DNA of 43,841 nucleotides from assembly GCA_010015675.1 (NCBI GenBank), contig ML976994.1, forward strand, positions 48,232 through 92,072, given 5' to 3'. Each line of letters begins with the position of its first letter. Position 1 is the stretch's first letter. A program made the translations under genes and the position numbers. Below are positions 23,152-40,365 of the stretch, one piece after another. Under the pieces are notes generated by a model that was given only the letters and a program-made list of their open reading frames with translations, searched no databases and was not told the origin of the DNA. The DNA is from Byssothecium circinans. Its lineage: Eukaryota > Ascomycota > Dothideomycetes > Pleosporales > Massarinaceae.

Positions 23152-26100
23152 TTACAGATACAGTGATTGGGCGGCAATCTAATAGAAGAGTTAGCACAAT
23201 ACGACGGGTTTGGCATTTGCTTCTTTGGGGCTTACGATGTCGCGCCTGATGAGATCGAGCGCTGCCGTGAACTTCTTCTCCAGATCTTCGCTGCCCATGA
23301 CCTTGGCGGCTTGTGCAGTCTGCCGAAGGAGCTCTTCAAGTCGTCGGAACAGGCGGATGAGACTGCCCTCGTAGACATCGGTCATTTTGCTACCACCGAA
23401 TTAGTTTTTGTTCACCCAGACAATGAAGTACTAACCAAATGTCCGCAAAGGACGCTCCCTTTGACCAAGCATACACAACTTCCATAAGCTCAGACTTGAA
23501 AGTCTGCAGGTATTCTTCCTCGTTCACTAGCAGCTTGCTCTCTTGTGAGATCTTGGCGACAACCCTCGCCTGCGCTTGGATGTCGGAGAAGGGCTTCCTA
23601 AGATCTTCCCTCAGCGCCGGAGATTCTTTGCACTTCTCTTCGAAGATGAAACAGCTCAAGCAAGCAGCACATTGCTCGGGAGTCAGCTCGTTGAAGAAGC
23701 GGTTGAATAGAAGTTCGCTCAGGACCAGTTCGTCGCCGGTGCTGATCTCGCAGGCAACTCGTGCTTTGATCTGGACCACATCTGCCTCATCGATGAAGCC
23801 AAGCCGGCGAAGAACTCGCTTGCGACTCTTGAGTTCGTCGAGCTGTATTATCGACAGCGCATTCGCAATGTCCTTCTTGAGAGCCTTGATCTGGTCGCCG
23901 TAGTCCACCTTCTTCTTGTATTGACTGTAGAGTTCGGGCAGCCTCGGCGAGTTGTGGAGAGGGTTGGCGAGGAGCCGCGATTCCAGAACTTCGATTTTCT
24001 TGCCTGTCTTAGCTTTATAATCCCGCGGTAAACGGATTTTACTCACCCTCAGAAGTTTCTTGAAGCTCTCGTCGTTGATGCCCATATTTTCAATTGGGTC
24101 CAAGATGGCCATACCGTCGGGGAATCGTTTCTTAACCTCCTCCATCGTCTTACGCACAGTATTCTTCTGCTCGGTTGACTTGACTTCATTTGGCAAGAAC
24201 ACGCGCAGGTGACCAAACGATTCGATGGTGTTTAGGAGTAGAGGAACAACTTCCATCTTGCCCTTGTCCCCGGGCGCAGGCGGTCGAACTCCAGGGGGCA
24301 GATCACCGTTGAACTGTGGCGTGTGCTTGACATTGCTGGCGACTAAGACCAGGGCGTTGACGATGTACATCTCCTGCGGTGCAAGAATTTCACCCTTATT
24401 GGGTTTACGCTGGATGAAGTCGAGCACAGCACCCCAACCGAAGTCATAATCCTTGTACTTGATTTTGATCAGGCGCCCGTTCTGCAAAAATGGGAGGCAG
24501 TAGTTCGGATGGTTAATGACGTCGCGCATATCCTTGGTATGACTGTCCAGCTGCTGCCGCACCGAGTAGTACTCCCTAATCGCCCCTTCATCGGTGATAG
24601 TCATCTGCGCTCGTTCGCTCTCAAGTTCCTGGAGCTTCTTCTCGAGGCTGGAGACGCTTGCAGTATTCTGGAACTGAAAGAAGCAGCGCTCCAGCATGAA
24701 CTCGGGGGAAATACCCTCGACCCTCATCAGATTGAGGATCATGTTATAGCCGAGATGGAAGGCGGAGTTCAGGTTGTCTTGTTGCCCGCGTACAATCTCC
24801 TTTGCGACTGCAGGCTCCATAGCCTCGTTTATCATCATGATAACGATGCCACGTTCGTCGAGACCGCGACGACCAGCACGACCAGACATTTGGATGAACT
24901 CAGATGGCGTAACCCAGCGCTGGGATACGCCATCAAATTTGCGCACGCTTGTGAAGACGACTGTCTTTGCCGGCATGTTCAATCCGATGGAGAAAGTCTC
25001 GGTCGCAAAGAGCACCTTGATCAGACCCTCTTGAAACAGGATCTCGATAGTTTCCTTGAGGATTGGGAGCAGACCAGAGTGATGGACGCCTATACCTCGT
25101 CGGAGCAGAGGGAGGATATGCTTGATCTGAGGCAAGTCCCGGTCCTCTTCAGAGAGGGATGCAATGGCGCTTGAGAAGACCTTGGACACCATCTCTTTCT
25201 CCGAGTCGTCGTTGAAGGCGAGCGAGCTCATGGCGAGGGCGTAGTTTTCACAATCGCGCTTGCTAAAGCTGAAGACGATGACGGGGTTGTAGCTCTTCAT
25301 CATGATCATCTTGACAATCTTATAGATGTCAGTGCCCTCTTTGTTGCCGCCTGTGTTGGTCTTCTTGTCCTTGCCTTTCCCCTTGCGCCTCGCCAGGAAG
25401 TCGGCGGCGTCCGTTCCGGACTTGTCGGCGATGGTGGCCATGGCCTTCTGGAAGTTCTCCTCGCGAAAGACGCCCTTCTCATCGACGATCAGGTGGATGC
25501 CATCGGCACCTTGAGGGAAGAAGTAATGCTGCAGCGGCGTCGGACGGAAATCGGTGTACACGACATGGCAGGGTTGGCCGTGCGTCTTGACTATCCACTC
25601 GGCGAACTGCATGGCGTTGGGGATGGTGGCGGACAGAAAGACATAGCGGACCTTGTCGGGGAGCAAGATGATGGTCTCCTCCCACACGACGCCGCGCGAC
25701 TTGTCTCGTAGGTAGTGCACTTCGTCGAACACAACCCAGGCCACTTCGCGCATGATTTCGGAGCCGCGGTAGAGCATGGAGCGCAGAATTTCAGTCGTCA
25801 TGACCAAGCACGTCGCCGTGGGGTTGATGGTGACGTCCCCTGTCATGAGGCCGACATCGCCGAAAATCTCCAGAAATTCGCGGTACTTCTGGTTGCTCAA
25901 CGCCTTGATGGGGCTTGTGTAGATGACGCGCTGGTTGTTGTTGAGACATTGCGCAATGGCATACTCTGCCACGACCGTCTTTCCGGCCGACGTGTGCGCC
26001 GAGACCAGAACGCTCTCGTTGCGCTGTATCGAAGCGATGGATACTTGCTGGAAGGGATCGAGGGTGAAGGGCCACGTCCGCGCAGGCTCTTCGGGTGGGC

Positions 26101-26491
26101 GGTGCTCGGAGATAGGCACGTAGTCGTAGTCGGGCGGGAGGGCGACCTGATGGCGCACCTGATGTGAAAGCACAACAGCCTGTCCGTCCTGCGCTGCCTG
26201 GCCCTGCAGTCCCGCGGCGGCAGCGACCTCGCGCGACTGCTCTGTCTCGAAGGCGTCCGTCACTACTGGATCCTCGACGTCGCGCTTCCGCCGCTTCGGT
26301 CGCGCGCCGTTCTCGAGGGGTGTATTGTCGTCTTTGGGCGTGGCCGTGGCCGTGGACGCGGACGCGCCAGGTGTGGGTGCAGGTGCTGGTGCTTTCACAC
26401 TGCCGTTGGCCTGGCGCTTCTTGCTCCTCTTGCTCTTCTTGGGCACGTCATTGCCCGCCGGCTGCTCGAAAACGTCGAACAAGTCGTCCAT
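23152..26491 (-). CDS. MTR4: ATP-dependent RNA helicase Mtr4/Dob1 (exosome cofactor)
   Basis: Three exons, 23436-26491, 23236-23389 and 23152-23178, with introns of 46 and 57 nt give 1078 aa, the usual Mtr4 length. After a Lys/Pro-rich N-terminal tail come Walker [10 protein letters not shown] (GKT about 170-172), [19 protein letters not shown] (about 256-259), FLSATIPN and the second RecA domain with SGRAGRRG. Then follow the arch/KOW region and the C-terminal helical domain. The last two small exons supply [15 protein letters not shown] and the terminal IIAAQSLYL; without them the protein would stop early. Mtr4 is the helicase of the TRAMP complex and feeds RNAs to the nuclear exosome in rRNA, snoRNA and tRNA surveillance. 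It is divergent from COX8, 297 bp apart. Confidence 0.96.
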
Positions 26492-27466: not shown

Positions 27467-30400
27467 ATGCGCAACCTGAGAATCGTCGGTCGGTCGCTGT
27501 TGCGCTTTGCCGGCGAGGATCCGCTGCCCCTCACTGCTACCGCTTGGGATGCCGCCTCGAATGCACTCATATGCGCCTTTGGGCCATCTGAATCACGTGC
27601 TGTCGTCGAGCTCAAGAGGCTGCATCACGATCACAACGGTGCAGAAGAGCGACTCGAAAGCATTGCCTCCTGGGACGCACCGTGTCCGCTAGCTTCCCTT
27701 GCCCATGACTCCATCGTGAACCTCCATCACTTTTCGGACTCTTCGACGTCATGCCTAGTTCTGGCTGGAGGAGACATTGTTTTAGTGCGGCAGTATCCTG
27801 AAAATGGTGAAGAGCTAGTCGAAATCGTTGGATCCGTAGATGCCGGCATTTCGGCTGCAGCCTGGTCACCAGACGAGGAGCTACTGGCCATCACCACCCA
27901 AGTCGGCATCCTACTGCTCATGAGCCATGATATCGAAAATATCGCTAGTATCACACTCTCTCCGGAAGATGTCAATGTATCGAGCCATGTCTCTGTCGGC
28001 TGGGGAAAGAAGGAGACGCAGTTCAAAGGCAAGCGAGCAAGAGCCTTGCAGGACCCTACAATGCCAGAGTCTGTTGATGAGGGTGTCCTCAGCGCGTTCG
28101 ATGACAGTTCGGTGACTGTCAGCTGGCGTGGCGATGGTGCATATTTTGCTGTCAACAAGGTCGAAGAAAAACGTCGGCGGATGATCCGCGTTTATTCAAG
28201 AGAAGGACAACTCGATAGCGTTAGTGAGCCGGTGGATGGTCTCGAGGGCGCACTCAGCTGGAGGCCTTCTGGAAATCTTATTACAGGTATTCGCCGCTCA
28301 AATGATCGCATAGAAGTAGTTTTCTTTGAGCGGAACGGACTCCGGCATGGTCAATTTGATCTACGCTTCACACCCGATGAGCTGCAAGCTCTCACTACAC
28401 CACTGACGCTCCGATGGAATAGCGATTCCAATGTACTCGCTGTATCGTACCAGGAAAAAGTACAGCTATGGACGATGAGCAACTACCACTACTACCTTAA
28501 GCAAGAGCTGGTCTTTCCCGAGCAAGACATTCACAATGTACAGTGCACGTGGCACTCAGAACGGCCACTATCAGTAGCTCTATCGACTAGAGATGCGCTT
28601 CAGATCGTCGAATATGCGTCTGTCGTTGCCCATGGCTCAGTAGCGCCTCCAAACGACTTTGGTATCGTCGCATCGATAGATGGAGCGACTTTGAAACTCA
28701 CACCTTTGAGGATCGCCAACATCCCACCGCCCATGTTTTTACAACGGCTACCCTTGGAGAAAAAAGTCGTTGATGTTGCGTTGTCCATGTCAGGAACCTG
28801 TTTGGCTATATTATCACACTCAGACCTAGCCGTATACACACTTGATCTGAAGAAGCGACCAGTACCTGCACCCACTCTCCTGTGGAGAAGCAAGGCGCTT
28901 GCTGGTGCTTGCCCTCGACATGTCACTTTCCTTGGGGACAACCGTGTATGTGTGCTCGCCGACAGCTGGGAAGTGGAAGAAAGTTTCATATGGGTCAGTG
29001 ATAACGAGGAACTTCTCCCTAAGGGTCCGATCCTTGAATCAGGAAAGATCTCTTCTCTTACGTCAAGCGTTGACTTCCAAAAAGTATACGCCAGCTTCCA
29101 GGATGGGTCCATACACGAACTACTGCTTGGCCAGGCCTCCCTGGACTTGCCACTACAAACTTCGCTAGAAACGAAACTACACTCTTTTGCATCCGAAGTC
29201 AGGGTTACCTCATTGGAAGAAAAGGTAGGTTCTATTATATCTTGGTATCGATGAGGCTAATAAAAATCAGCCCGTAGCGTTCGGCTTGACCAAGAGTGGG
29301 GTACTGAGCGCCAATGAGCGTGTAATCGCTCGGAATTGCACCTCGTTCGGCCTGACGCCAGCACATTTGATCTTCACAACAACTCAACATCTGCTGAAGT
29401 TTGTGCATTTGACCAGTTTAGAAGGTGTGGATATCCTCCTGATTATATGGGATTAAGCTGACGCCTATAGAACTCGAGGTCCCAGCAGATGAACCGCAGA
29501 AAGACGAGAGATGTAGGAGCGTTGAACGTGGAGCGAAGCTAGTCACCGTCATGCCTACCATATACTCCGTAGTCTTACAGATGCCCAGAGGCAATCTCGA
29601 GACCATCTACCCTCGCGCTTTGGTTGTTGCGGCTATTCGTCGTAGCATTGAGTCGAGTCATTACGATGAGGCATTTATGACATGCCGCAACCAACGAGTG
29701 GATATGAACATTCTTCACGATCATGATCCAGATCGCTTCATGGCCAACATCTCGATGATTGTCAAACAAATCAAGAGGGTTGACCATCTGGACTTGCTAC
29801 TTTCGCAGCTCCGGTATGTGTCTAGTTTAAGAAGAAAGTCTACTGCTGACCCGTTTAGAAACGAGGATGTATCTGAGACGATGTACAAGGAAACGCTGAA
29901 GGCTAAGGACCTGAAGGCAAAGGTCTCAATGTCAGCGGATCAGATCAACTCAAAAGTGAATCGAATATGCGACGGCTTCCTCGCCGTGCTTCAAGACCCG
30001 CCACATAAGGAAGATCGGTTACAGAATTTGATCACCGCTCATGTGTCCAAGGTCCCTCCGGACTTGGAGTCTGGCCTAGAGATGATCGGGCGTCTTCAAG
30101 GCAAGTAATCCACTGCACAGGACGAGGTAGACCATGTGTTAATGCCATACAGCGGTACAAGATCCTCTCACCGATCGGGCTGCCGAGCACATCTGTTTTC
30201 TTGCAGACGTGAACCAACTCTATGACACATCGCTTGGAATATACAACTTGGAGCTTGCGCTTCTGATTGCGCAGCAGTCCCAGAAGGTATGTCATTCATC
30301 ACCAAAAACGTGCTACGGTGTACTAACTTCGTCGTAGGACCCGCGAGAGTATCTCCCTCACCTCCAATCGCTACAGGATCTCCCTCCTCTCCGCCGCAAA

Positions 30401-31654
30401 TTCAAGATAGATGACCAACTCGGTCGACACGCCAAAGCTCTAACCCATTTGAAAGAGCTCGAAGCCTCCGACGAAGTTCAAGAGTATGTGCAAAAGCACA
30501 TGCTATACTCTGAAGCACTCAGCATGTATCAATATGATGTTATCCATCTCAAGAAGATTATGAGACTCTACGCAGACTACCTAAGCAGCACCAACCAGCA
30601 CAAGGAAGCAGCTTTGGCCTACGAGTACCTCGATGACTATGCTTCAGCATGGCCCAGCTATCGCTCCGCAAATGTCTGGCGGGAAGCGCTCTCATCAGCA
30701 ATCTTAGCAGGTGTATCATCATCGGAGCTAGAAACACTTGCTATGTCCTTAGCTGAGGGACTTGCCGAGACAAAAGATTACCTCTCCGCCTCGACAATCA
30801 CCCTAGACTACCTCTCCGATCTTCCCAACGCAGCCCGATATCTCTGCAAAGGTTGCTACTTTGCTGAAGCTACGCGGATCGTTACCCTGCGCACCCAACT
30901 CTCACTCATAGAAGAAGTCATTGATCCAGGCCTCATCGAGCGTAGTGGCGACATGACAGAGTTCCTCGCCGACATGAAAGGTCAACTACAAGCACAACTT
31001 CCGCGTCTCCGTGAACTCCGCACGAAGAAAGCAGAAGATCCACTCGCCTTCTACGAAGGCATGGAAGACACCAACATCCCCGACAACATATCTCTCGCAC
31101 CCACTGACACAACATCTGGTGGCACATTCATGACCCGATACACCAACCGCACAGGGACGGTAAACACGCAAACGACACGCAAGACATCCAAGAACAAGCG
31201 TCGCGAAGAGCGCAAACGTGCTCGCGGAAAGAAGGGGACAGTTTACGAAGAAGAGTACCTTGTGAACTCCATCGAGCGCCTCATTGAACGCATAAATAGC
31301 ATGGAAGATGAAATCCAACGCCTTATTGAAGGTTTAGTACGCCGTGGGATGCGCGAGCGCGCGGACGCCGTGTCGAATGCCGTGCGGGATGTCGTTCAGA
31401 TATGTCAAGATGCTGTGCAAGAAATGTATTCACCCGCGTCACAGAAGGCACAGGGGAATGTTGAAGGAGGTGTGGAGTCCGCTAGTGGCGTAAACGGATA
31501 CGGGGCGCCGGGTGTTGGTGGAGTTGCGGCGGGGGATGTGGCGATGAAGATGAGTGGTGCCGATAGGACATTGTGGGATAGCCTTGCGGAGGTGGAGAGA
31601 AAGAGGACGGCGCCGGTTGTGAAAGCTTTCGAGAGGTTGAGACTGCTGGGGTAA
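27467..31654 (+). CDS. ELP1: Elongator complex subunit 1 (Iki3/Elp1)
   Basis: Six exons, 27467-29224, 29271-29424, 29471-29813, 29859-30100, 30153-30286 and 30338-31654, give 1315 aa, the normal length. The N-terminal half is the two-propeller WD40-like region (AAWSPDEELLAITTQVGILLL, ALSWRPSGNLI). The C-terminal half is helical TPR-like (DHDPDRFMANISMIVKQIKR, FLADVNQLYDTSLGIYNLEL, VQKHMLYSEALSMYQYD). A basic patch, KNKRREERKRARGKKG, precedes the dimerisation helices, as in yeast Iki3. Elongator modifies wobble uridines of tRNAs. The intron 29814-29858 is 45 nt and stop-free, so it can be mistaken for coding sequence. The intron 30101-30152 has a GC donor (GCAAGT). Confidence 0.95.
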
Positions 31655-38578: not shown

Positions 38579-38584
38579 AAAAAA
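38579..38584 (-). terminator. RNA polymerase III terminator of the tRNA gene
   Basis: Six A on the plus strand give TTTTTT on the transcribed minus strand, 12 nt after the tRNA 3' end. A second run of five T follows (38571-38575). Runs of four or more T are the normal Pol III stop. Confidence 0.75.
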
Positions 38585-38632
38585 GAAGACGGAGAACATC
38601 TCAGGTGGGGCTCGAACCCACAGCCTTCAGAT

Positions 38633-38651
38633 TTCGGCGAAAGAAAGTTTC
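38633..38651 (-). other. tRNA intron 3: canonical anticodon-loop intron
   Basis: 19 nt after position 37, of the kind cut by the tRNA splicing endonuclease. The exact edges can slide by a base or two without changing the UCU anticodon. Confidence 0.7.
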
Positions 38652-38662
38652 TAGAAGTCTGA

Positions 38663-38716
38663 CTGCCATGTGCATTAGTATAGATTTAGATAGCACCAGG
38701 CGATGGGAAAACATAC
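38663..38716 (-). other. tRNA intron 2: spliceosome-like GT-AG, 26/27
   Basis: 54 nt, starting GTATGT, with TACTAAT at intron position 37-43 and ending GGCAG. Length, branch site and spacing to the acceptor match the protein-gene introns of this window. It is the same length as intron 1 but without clear sequence similarity to it outside the splice signals. Confidence 0.78.
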
Positions 38717-38724
38717 CGCGCTAC

Positions 38725-38778
38725 CTGAACAGGAATTAGTACACGGTTAAGAACCGGTGCGGATGTGGAGTGACTTGC
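38725..38778 (-). other. tRNA intron 1: spliceosome-like GC-AG, D-loop
   Basis: 54 nt, starting GCAAGT, with branch-like GTACTAATT at intron position 37-45 and ending GTTCAG. GCAAGT is the preferred form of spliceosomal GC donors, and the same donor begins the ELP1 intron at 30101. Removal closes the D-loop to a standard seven bases. Confidence 0.75.
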
Positions 38779-38795
38779 CATTGCGCCACTGAGAC

Positions 38796-40365
38796 GGTGG
38801 AATTTATCGGACAGTCTCTATAAGGATTTTACCAGAAATTGTGGGTTAGAAAATATATATGGTAGGCGTCAAAGTGGAGCGCTGACACAAAGGCGGTTTG
38901 GTGGCAATGAGGGGTACGTTGGGCTGCAAACGAGGGGCTGTGAGGTATGACTGGGTTGGTGGCATGCGTCATGCAAAGGGCGGTGGCATGGGGGACGAAT
39001 GGGAGGGCAGTGTTTCGTGGGACGGTGGGACGGGCGCGGGTGGGGACGGGGAACTTCAACTTCGTTTTAGAATAGGGAAATGGGGATGTTGGTGGAGATA
39101 AGTTGGCATCACGTTGGATTTATTTGAAGTATTTGGGAAATAATTTGGAATAGCCGGGTGGCTATAGGCGTGCTGAAAGTGTGCAGTGTCGGGTTGAAGG
39201 CTGGCTGCTGCGAACACGCATGGTATTAGGCATGAAACTTTGAGTAGTTGGCTGCACTCCGTAATAAGCATGTGAATCAAACAGAGCTTGATAGTAGTTC
39301 AATTCATATCGTGCGTCATTTCTTTTTGAATGGTAGAGGCCTCTGAAATCTGTACTTCTTGTTGCATTTCAGACCTTAACCTCGATTAACGCTTTTCCAA
39401 CACAAACAGGGCTTTGGGAAACGACCAAGTTTGTATGTGTAATAGGTCCACATCCAGATTTCGGTTATTCAACCCACATTTACCTCTCTAGCAAGTGCAC
39501 ATATGGGAGAATTGAGATATACACCGAAAGCATCCGGCAAAGACGTCAAGAAAGAACTAGATAAACCGCTTCTAGATGACATGCAAATAGCAAGACGTAG
39601 GGAAAAGGTTCTAATTGCCGGTGAAATGTTAAATTCGTGTGACACTCGTTGTCGTGTGAACTCTTTTCTGGTGGCTACAGGTCCAACTCGTGGTCAAGAG
39701 GAGTTCGGGCAAATAACCACTACCGACGATACATGAGCTCTATAGTGCATCTTTGCAACTGTCTTGCTAATAGTAACAATCCCATGCAAAGATCTGCGTT
39801 AAAACCCGGGAATAGCGTTTTAAACTATTTTTGCAATGAAAGCTACTTGACTCCAAGCGTGCATCCGTAGTGCCAACTCTTCTAACTATGAAAGTGTCTC
39901 GCCTTGAATACTCACAATCATGGCCGAGTATTGCTATATCGATATACCTTCTATCACTGCCTTTACGCGCTTATACCAGACTGTAAGGAAAGTCCAAAGC
40001 ATGCTGCGCGATAAAGCTGTCATTGTTGTTTATCACGTAGAAAATAAAGAGACAGTTTACCGAAAGTAGGATTTCCGTAACACAATTGCGCTGAATGTTT
40101 GAGGAGGGAAGTTTTCGATCTATGGGGCATTAAAACAGATGTATCTCCAGTGTCTGGAATACGTTACGTCACTGATTGTGGGGAAGAAGTCGAAGCGGGG
40201 TGACTAGCGAGGAACATGGGGAGCATTTCCACCGCGTTTTGGGACAGAGTTGATCACATAAAAAAGCCTGCATCAATCCATTACCTAGGTCAGGTAAGGA
40301 TATCCTACATAACTAACTGTACGTGAATCCTTTGAGCGATAATGCTTTAGTAACAGTTCCGCAAC
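38796..40365. other. Intergenic stretch, no supported gene
   Basis: About 1.6 kb. The part 38880-39050 is purine-rich (many GGG and GTGG words). A 77-codon frame at 39503-39736 has no motif or splice context. No RNA gene or repeat was recognised. Confidence 0.6.

Follow-up and report, generated by a model that had tools for sequence, protein, structure and literature searches.

The window, by which we mean the whole 43,841-nt stretch of contig ML976994.1 of Byssothecium circinans that was analyzed, carries on its reverse strand a tRNA-Arg(UCU) gene whose 199 bp, read directly from the sequence, resolve into 72 nt of tRNA, two inserts of 54 nt each, and one of 19 nt (72 + 54 + 54 + 19). The shortest insert is an ordinary tRNA intron at position 37/38, and the two longer ones, in the D-loop and at 26/27, bear the signals of spliceosomal introns. 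The parts of the gene and its surroundings, all on the reverse strand, are as follows:

38854..38859, reverse strand: TATATA, a possible TATA element, starting 64 nt upstream of G1
38597..38795, reverse strand: tRNA-Arg(UCU) gene, 199 bp, with G1 at 38795 and G73 at 38597
38779..38795, reverse strand: exon 1, 17 nt, acceptor 5' strand and D-stem 5' strand, ending at G18
38778..38788, reverse strand: A box TGGCGCAATGG, 10/11 against the consensus; its final G is the first base of intron 1
38725..38778, reverse strand: spliceosomal-type intron 1, 54 nt, GC-AG (GCAAGT ... TTCAG), in the D-loop between G18 and G19
38735..38741, reverse strand: TACTAAT, putative branch site of intron 1, with 11 nt after the branch A
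38717..38724, reverse strand: exon 2, 8 nt, GTAGCGCG
38663..38716, reverse strand: spliceosomal-type intron 2, 54 nt, GT-AG (GTATGT ... GGCAG), at 26/27
38674..38680, reverse strand: TACTAAT, putative branch site of intron 2, with 12 nt after the branch A
38652..38662, reverse strand: exon 3, 11 nt, TCAGACTTCTA, holding the anticodon TCT
38633..38651, reverse strand: ordinary 37/38 tRNA intron, 19 nt, as called by ARAGORN
38597..38632, reverse strand: exon 4, 36 nt, anticodon stem 3' strand, T arm, acceptor 3' strand, and G73
38608..38618, reverse strand: B box GGTTCGAGCCC, unsplit, 10/11 against the consensus
38579..38584, reverse strand: run of six T, the presumed Pol III terminator, 12 nt past the gene end

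Removal of all the inserts leaves a cloverleaf in which, by our own count, the acceptor (7/7), D (4/4), anticodon (5/5), and T (5/5) stems pair throughout, i.e., 21/21 stem pairs with a G-U at 1:72. When the two 54-nt inserts are removed, ARAGORN with the intron fixed at 37/38 returns Arg(tct) with a 19-nt intron, and if it may place the intron anywhere it puts the anticodon in the wrong spot (tca); the raw window yields no tRNA with either ARAGORN (bacterial settings) or Rfam. An earlier note, made from the letters of the window, had described the two 54-nt inserts with their donors, TACTAAT, and CAG, and this anatomy proves correct to the base (exons of 17, 8, 11, and 36 nt); its claim that a full 72-nt cloverleaf results once these and the 19-nt intron are taken out is borne out by both the stem pairs and the ARAGORN call. 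The protein genes nearby include those for MTR4, the exosome helicase (23155-26491, reverse strand), and ELP1, a component of Elongator in tRNA wobble modification (27467-31654, forward strand); their nearness to the tRNA gene is probably due to chance. Apart from two gaps, the encoded MTR4 is identical to the B. circinans protein (two stretches totalling 1061 residues), as expected for DNA of this species (Pleosporales, Massarinaceae) or of one barely distinguishable from it; by the same protein, Periconia macrospinosa is the nearest other named relative.

That earlier suggestion of spliceosomal-type introns in a nuclear tRNA is supported and extends well beyond the window gene: searches of the assembly (48.4 Mb, 109 contigs) recovered, in all, 20 tRNA genes with 21 such introns and 37 genes without one (20/57 interrupted), counts that are lower bounds and leave room for further intact copies. 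The RF00005 covariance search returned 50 matches (46 above the cut-off), among which inserts with like signals are seen in Lys-UUU, three Lys-CUU, His-GUG, Thr-UGU, Arg-CCU, and Ser-GCU genes. A pattern combining an intact B box with a T-run gave 98 rows as against 21 in a reversed-pattern control (150 against 29 in its first form), and the reading of 40 of its sites added Arg-CCG, Val-CAC, Ala-CGC, two Asn-GUU, and Pro-CGG, with about a dozen sites set aside for 3' ends that are not tRNA-like. A pattern for an intron internal to the T-loop hit two places, both Lys genes (control 0), and one for the initiator T-arm followed by a T-run hit three (control one row); initiator genes account for two of the three. 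Thr-AGU (L058), Thr-CGU (L043), and another Arg-ACG gene (L051, hereafter Arg-ACG-b) were recognized on closer inspection. The material examined thus comprises 50 RF00005 matches, 40 pattern sites, and three initiator-pattern places.

The uninterrupted set, sorted by hand, consists of 36 ARAGORN rows plus L015, a separate locus identical in sequence to L014; the 49 ARAGORN rows divide into these 36, seven interrupted genes, and six tRNA-like sequences, and L053 and L094 are one gene. Left out of the comparison of 20 with 37 genes were the tRNA-derived repeats L040, L041, L044, L045, L047, L052, L054, and L055, the tRNA-like L037, L048, L049, and L063, the pair L065 and L090, and sites with no visible tRNA. 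Neither the covariance search nor the B-box search yielded a gene for Phe, Tyr, Trp, elongator Met, or Val(AAC/UAC), and these may be interrupted too. Several of the sequences met in these searches have features of their own. The repeats L040, L041, L045, L047, L052, L054, and L055 are dispersed and SINE-like, with the sequence GGTGGGATGGCTTAGTGGTAGAGTGCTGCAGCC. The tRNA-like pair L065 (C4:183626-184126) and L090 (C18:251986-252350) reads GCCAGCG...CGCTGGCA and has good D and T arms. L064, L081, and L096 resemble one another in their core, AGGGCTGCCG, also contain T-runs and the B-box-like GGTTCGANTCC, and are perhaps a family of Pol III RNAs. As to an assembly or sequencing artefact, nothing was seen in its favour, and the spread of the 20 loci over many contigs and the difference of all 21 introns from one another reduce its probability to a negligible one.

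The 21 introns are 48-64 nt long and have the make of U2-type introns. Their donors conform to GTRNGY or its GC variant: G is invariant at positions 1 and 5 (21/21 each), position 2 is T in 19 and C in two, position 3 is A in 18, T in two, and G in one, and position 6 is T in 18 and C in three. All acceptors are YAG (15 CAG and six TAG). A CTRA branch motif is present in 21/21, and in 20/21 it takes the form CTRAY with 9-12 nt following the A, the exception being Arg-ACG-b with a weak CTAAA and 5 nt after the A. The MTR4 gene of the window is interrupted by introns built in this way: one of 57 nt (23179..23235, reverse strand; GTAAGC...TGCTAAC...TTAG) and a second of 46 nt (GTTAGT...ACTAAT...GTAG), both consistent with the gene model annotated in the record; a third gap in that model, of 48 nt, does not match the intron pattern. 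Group I and group II introns are much longer than 48-64 nt, a length far too short for either, and the window has no Rfam match at the gathering score.

A strict donor-branch-acceptor pattern fits 18/18 of the introns first in hand as against 1/9000 dinucleotide shuffles; it was drawn up from those same introns and so describes more than it tests. Among the three introns added later, that of Thr-CGU fits, that of Thr-AGU fits if G is allowed at donor position 3, and that of Arg-ACG-b fails. In bulk window DNA the pattern has 20 starts, as against a shuffled mean of 13.4, with one of ten shuffles reaching 20. The weight of the evidence lies in the coincidence of the pattern with exact restoration of a tRNA, the pattern being weak in bulk DNA when taken alone; a chance origin of the splice-like signals was rejected.

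Exact excision restores the host in every case: with introns fixed at 37/38, ARAGORN assigns the expected isotype to 20/20 spliced genes (17/17 and, for those added later, 3/3). When the program may place the intron anywhere, the expected isotype comes out for 12/17, and the five misplaced anticodons all belong to genes with a 37/38 intron. On the unspliced genes it gives the right anticodon in 1/17 (Lys-CUU-b) and 0/3. Intron-less counterparts confirm junctions independently: spliced Thr-AGU L058 is identical to the intron-less L011 over its first 37 nt and spliced Arg-ACG L051 to the intron-less L024 over its first 38 nt. In addition, the D-loop AATGGCAAGGCGC of spliced Arg-CCG equals that of Arg-ACG. 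Comparisons of related genes are as follows:

Lys-CUU b and c: spliced identity 103/105, introns 38/54
Asn a and b: spliced identity 79/89 (the gap being 37/38 intron length), T-stem introns 36/59
Initiator a and b: spliced identity 61/82, introns 37/61
Lys-UUU and Lys-CUU-a: spliced identity 60/117 (the 37/38 introns being very unlike), introns 37/64

Splice signals are retained while the interiors of the introns drift. With ends trimmed, the interiors reach an identity of 0.64 at best (Lys-CUU b and c), with a median of 0.51 over all pairs, so that no intron family is seen; on these values a single spreading, introner-like element was rejected.

For several amino acids and for initiation, interrupted genes are the only ones found: both initiator genes, all four Lys genes, and both Asn genes carry introns, as does the one gene found for each of Arg-UCU, Arg-CCU, Arg-CCG, Val-CAC, Ala-CGC, Pro-CGG, Thr-UGU, Thr-CGU, and Ser-GCU. 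For Thr-AGU, Arg-ACG, and His-GUG, one of two genes is interrupted in each case. The initiator anticodon stem-loop GGGCTCATAACCC has no match in the assembly. As a query of the genome, spliced Arg-UCU returns two matches, one being its own exon in the window and the other Lys-UUU, and the unspliced gene matches the window only, both results being lower bounds. A count of other Arg-UCU genes, which the earlier note had proposed as a check, accordingly stands at none in the searches with the spliced and unspliced queries and the B-box pattern, all of them again lower bounds. These results bear on the possibility that the interrupted genes are decaying copies, which gained introns after losing their importance while intact genes elsewhere do the work. 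Such a reading could appeal to the lower-bound nature of the genome-wide searches and to the existence of some decayed tRNA-like copies (L048 and L063); it is hard to reconcile with sole essential genes, and the folding of all 20 spliced genes to the expected isotype and the retention of splice signals amid drifting interiors likewise oppose it. We therefore regard it as very unlikely, and the same holds for the relic in a dead copy that the earlier note had listed among three options for the window gene, since the searches brought up no second Arg(UCU) gene and no Lys, Asn, or initiator-Met gene free of such an intron.

By our own count of tRNA positions, the introns are inserted as follows:

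Acceptor stem: 3/4 in Pro-CGG and Thr-CGU, 4/5 in Arg-ACG-b
D-loop: Arg-UCU, Arg-CCU, Arg-CCG, Val-CAC, Ala-CGC, and Thr-AGU
26/27: Arg-UCU
Anticodon stem: 29/30 in both initiator genes
Variable arm: Ser-GCU
T-stem: 50/51 in Thr-UGU; 52/53 in two Asn, two Lys-CUU, and His
T-loop: 57/58 in Lys-UUU and Lys-CUU-a

Both initiator introns have the form CCG/GTAAG(T or C)...ACTAAC...ATCAG/GGCTCATA, with slashes at the exon-intron junctions; the same two genes, L132 and L137, also hold tiny inserts at 37/38, of 5 nt (GAGTT) and 10 nt.

None of the 21 introns lies at 37/38, where the 19-nt intron of the window gene is found. One might suppose that the tRNA endonuclease or a relative of it cuts them as well and that their GT-AG look is incidental; several introns per tRNA at odd places are known in some archaea and red algae, and the window gene does carry a 37/38 intron besides. 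Endonuclease introns need no donor, branch site, or YAG, though, and the full set is present in all but one of the introns here. In our own test, restricted to the strict register, a bulge-helix-bulge with a 4-bp central helix paired 4/4 is formed at 0/21 junction pairs, and bulge-helix-bulge splicing was rejected on this count. Cutting by the endonuclease is, in our estimate, slightly less probable even than decay of the copies.

The interrupted genes retain the signals of working Pol III tRNA genes, i.e., A and B boxes and a terminal T-run. A run of at least four T lies within 40 nt downstream of 20/20 genes and a run of at least five lies inside none of the 20. For eight of them (Arg-CCG, Val-CAC, Ala-CGC, both Asn, Pro-CGG, and both initiators) the search pattern itself asked for a T-run and an intact T arm, and in those eight neither feature counts as independent evidence; the T-runs are independent of discovery for the other 12/20. 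TTTT occurs inside two introns (window intron 2 and that of Arg-CCG) and in the exons of two further genes (Ala-CGC and Lys-UUU), and constitutes a mild hindrance to Pol III. TATA-like sequences lie upstream of 15/17 genes. The intron of Arg-CCU cuts the A-box match from 10/11 to 9/11. The B box is unsplit in 15/17 genes; introns at 52/53 end in AG ahead of GTTCGA, so that the B box reads through.

In the other two genes the intron splits the B box and itself holds a B-box-like stretch: GGTTCGAATCA in the T-loop intron of Lys-UUU (L140), with 10/11 matches (equalled by 4/2000 shuffles), and AGTTCGAATCA in that of Lys-CUU-a (L141), with 9/11 (48/2000 shuffles), which is just one above the 8/11 that three other introns reach without need of it. 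The Thr-UGU intron has a stretch matching at 10/11 (0/2000 shuffles) beside an intact B box. It is possible that the T-loop introns of the two Lys genes carry a promoter element, and an intronic B box may reflect either selection for a Pol III promoter or the trace of a T-arm duplication.

Transcription by RNA polymerase II, with the spliceosome removing the introns and the Pol III signals persisting as leftovers, would accord with the normal work of the spliceosome on Pol II transcripts and with the TATA-like sequences of 15/17 genes. The latter has a counterpart, however, upstream of the best U6 match, which we take to be a Pol III gene and which has TATATATA there. The retained A and B boxes, the B-box-like stretch in both introns that split the B box, and the T-runs that end 20/20 genes with no run of five T inside also tell against Pol II, to which we assign a probability lower again than that of endonuclease cutting. 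Among the earlier note's three options, spliceosomal processing of a Pol III transcript is the best match, since A and B boxes and terminators persist.

Invasion of Pol III genes in general was rejected: the 5S rRNA search gave 22 matches (20 above the cut-off, 18 at ≥70 bits and 120-121 nt), none with such an intron, and the best of six U6 matches is whole and intron-free, with the reservation that covariance searches may miss strongly interrupted copies. Two partial U6 copies (L083 and L084, on C14) lie within 1.4 kb of the whole U6 gene.

Given these observations, we propose that the inserts are very probably U2-type spliceosomal introns in nuclear tRNA genes of B. circinans, removed by the spliceosome from Pol III pre-tRNAs. 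Each gene would be transcribed by Pol III from its A and B boxes, mostly with the addition of an upstream TATA element, and transcription would end at the T-run. The spliceosome would then recognize the short intron via donor, branch site, and YAG and join the tRNA exons exactly, including exons as short as 8 nt, or as short as 3-4 nt of mature sequence plus leader; where a separate short 37/38 intron is present, the tRNA endonuclease would take it out. We infer Pol III as the polymerase, the splicing, and the order of these steps from the sequences, which argue strongly that the introns are actually spliced. It also appears likely, at somewhat lower confidence, that about a third of the recognized nuclear tRNA genes (20/57), including all those found for Lys, Asn, and the initiator, have acquired one or two U2-type introns in many separate gains at about a dozen sites, that the spliceosome has become an obligatory machine of tRNA maturation, and that in places an intron has taken over a part of the Pol III promoter, with the B box inside it.

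If this is true, initiation and the decoding of whole amino acids require that the spliceosome act on Pol III transcripts, and two old questions become testable, namely the tie between spliceosome and Pol II and the rise and fixation of new introns. For the latter, paralogues with and without the intron (Thr-AGU, Arg-ACG) offer near-empty sites in a host with most of its bases constrained. There is also a practical side: programs that search for tRNA genes overlook or mislabel genes of this kind, as seen from the absence of any ARAGORN or Rfam call in the window and the single right ARAGORN anticodon among 17 unspliced genes.

A 2026 review classes tRNA splicing as independent of the spliceosome and done by protein enzymes (PMC13149111), and passages of PMC11782384 and PMC1796607 contain no spliceosomal intron in a tRNA. 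Exact phrases for such introns retrieved no paper from the open-licence PMC literature. We take this to mean that such introns are undescribed in the open literature searched, the kind of intron being known and the host RNA new.

Several known systems resemble the present one in part. For ordinary nuclear tRNA introns, which likewise interrupt nuclear tRNA genes and one of which, of 19 nt, the window gene carries, position 37/38 is the rule; they differ in being without donor-branch-acceptor signals and in being cut by structure. Archaeal and red-algal tRNA genes have ectopic bulge-helix-bulge introns, similar in occupying several unusual places and sometimes more than one per gene, whereas here the strict test finds that structure at 0/21 and spliceosomal signals take its place. 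In fission yeast and certain other fungi, the gene for U6 snRNA has an mRNA-type intron and is a precedent for a spliceosomal intron in a Pol III transcript, Pol III being the probable polymerase in our case; that host is a single snRNA and itself part of the spliceosome, as opposed to at least 20 tRNA genes in a fungus whose U6 is intron-free.

The closest parallel comes from ascomycete nuclear rDNA, where spliceosomal introns are established, above all in lichen fungi (Bhattacharya et al. 2000, as cited in PMC8527467), one from Cladonia grayi being 57 bp, and where yeast is reported to splice an intron of this kind out of rRNA transcribed by Pol I (PMC8527467); the word 'tRNA' is absent from that paper. 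The two cases share short mRNA-type introns in a structured non-coding RNA not made by Pol II, and they differ in that the host here is a tRNA, presumably a Pol III product, in place of a Pol I rRNA, that two introns may flank an exon of only 8 nt, and that the promoter lies inside the gene.
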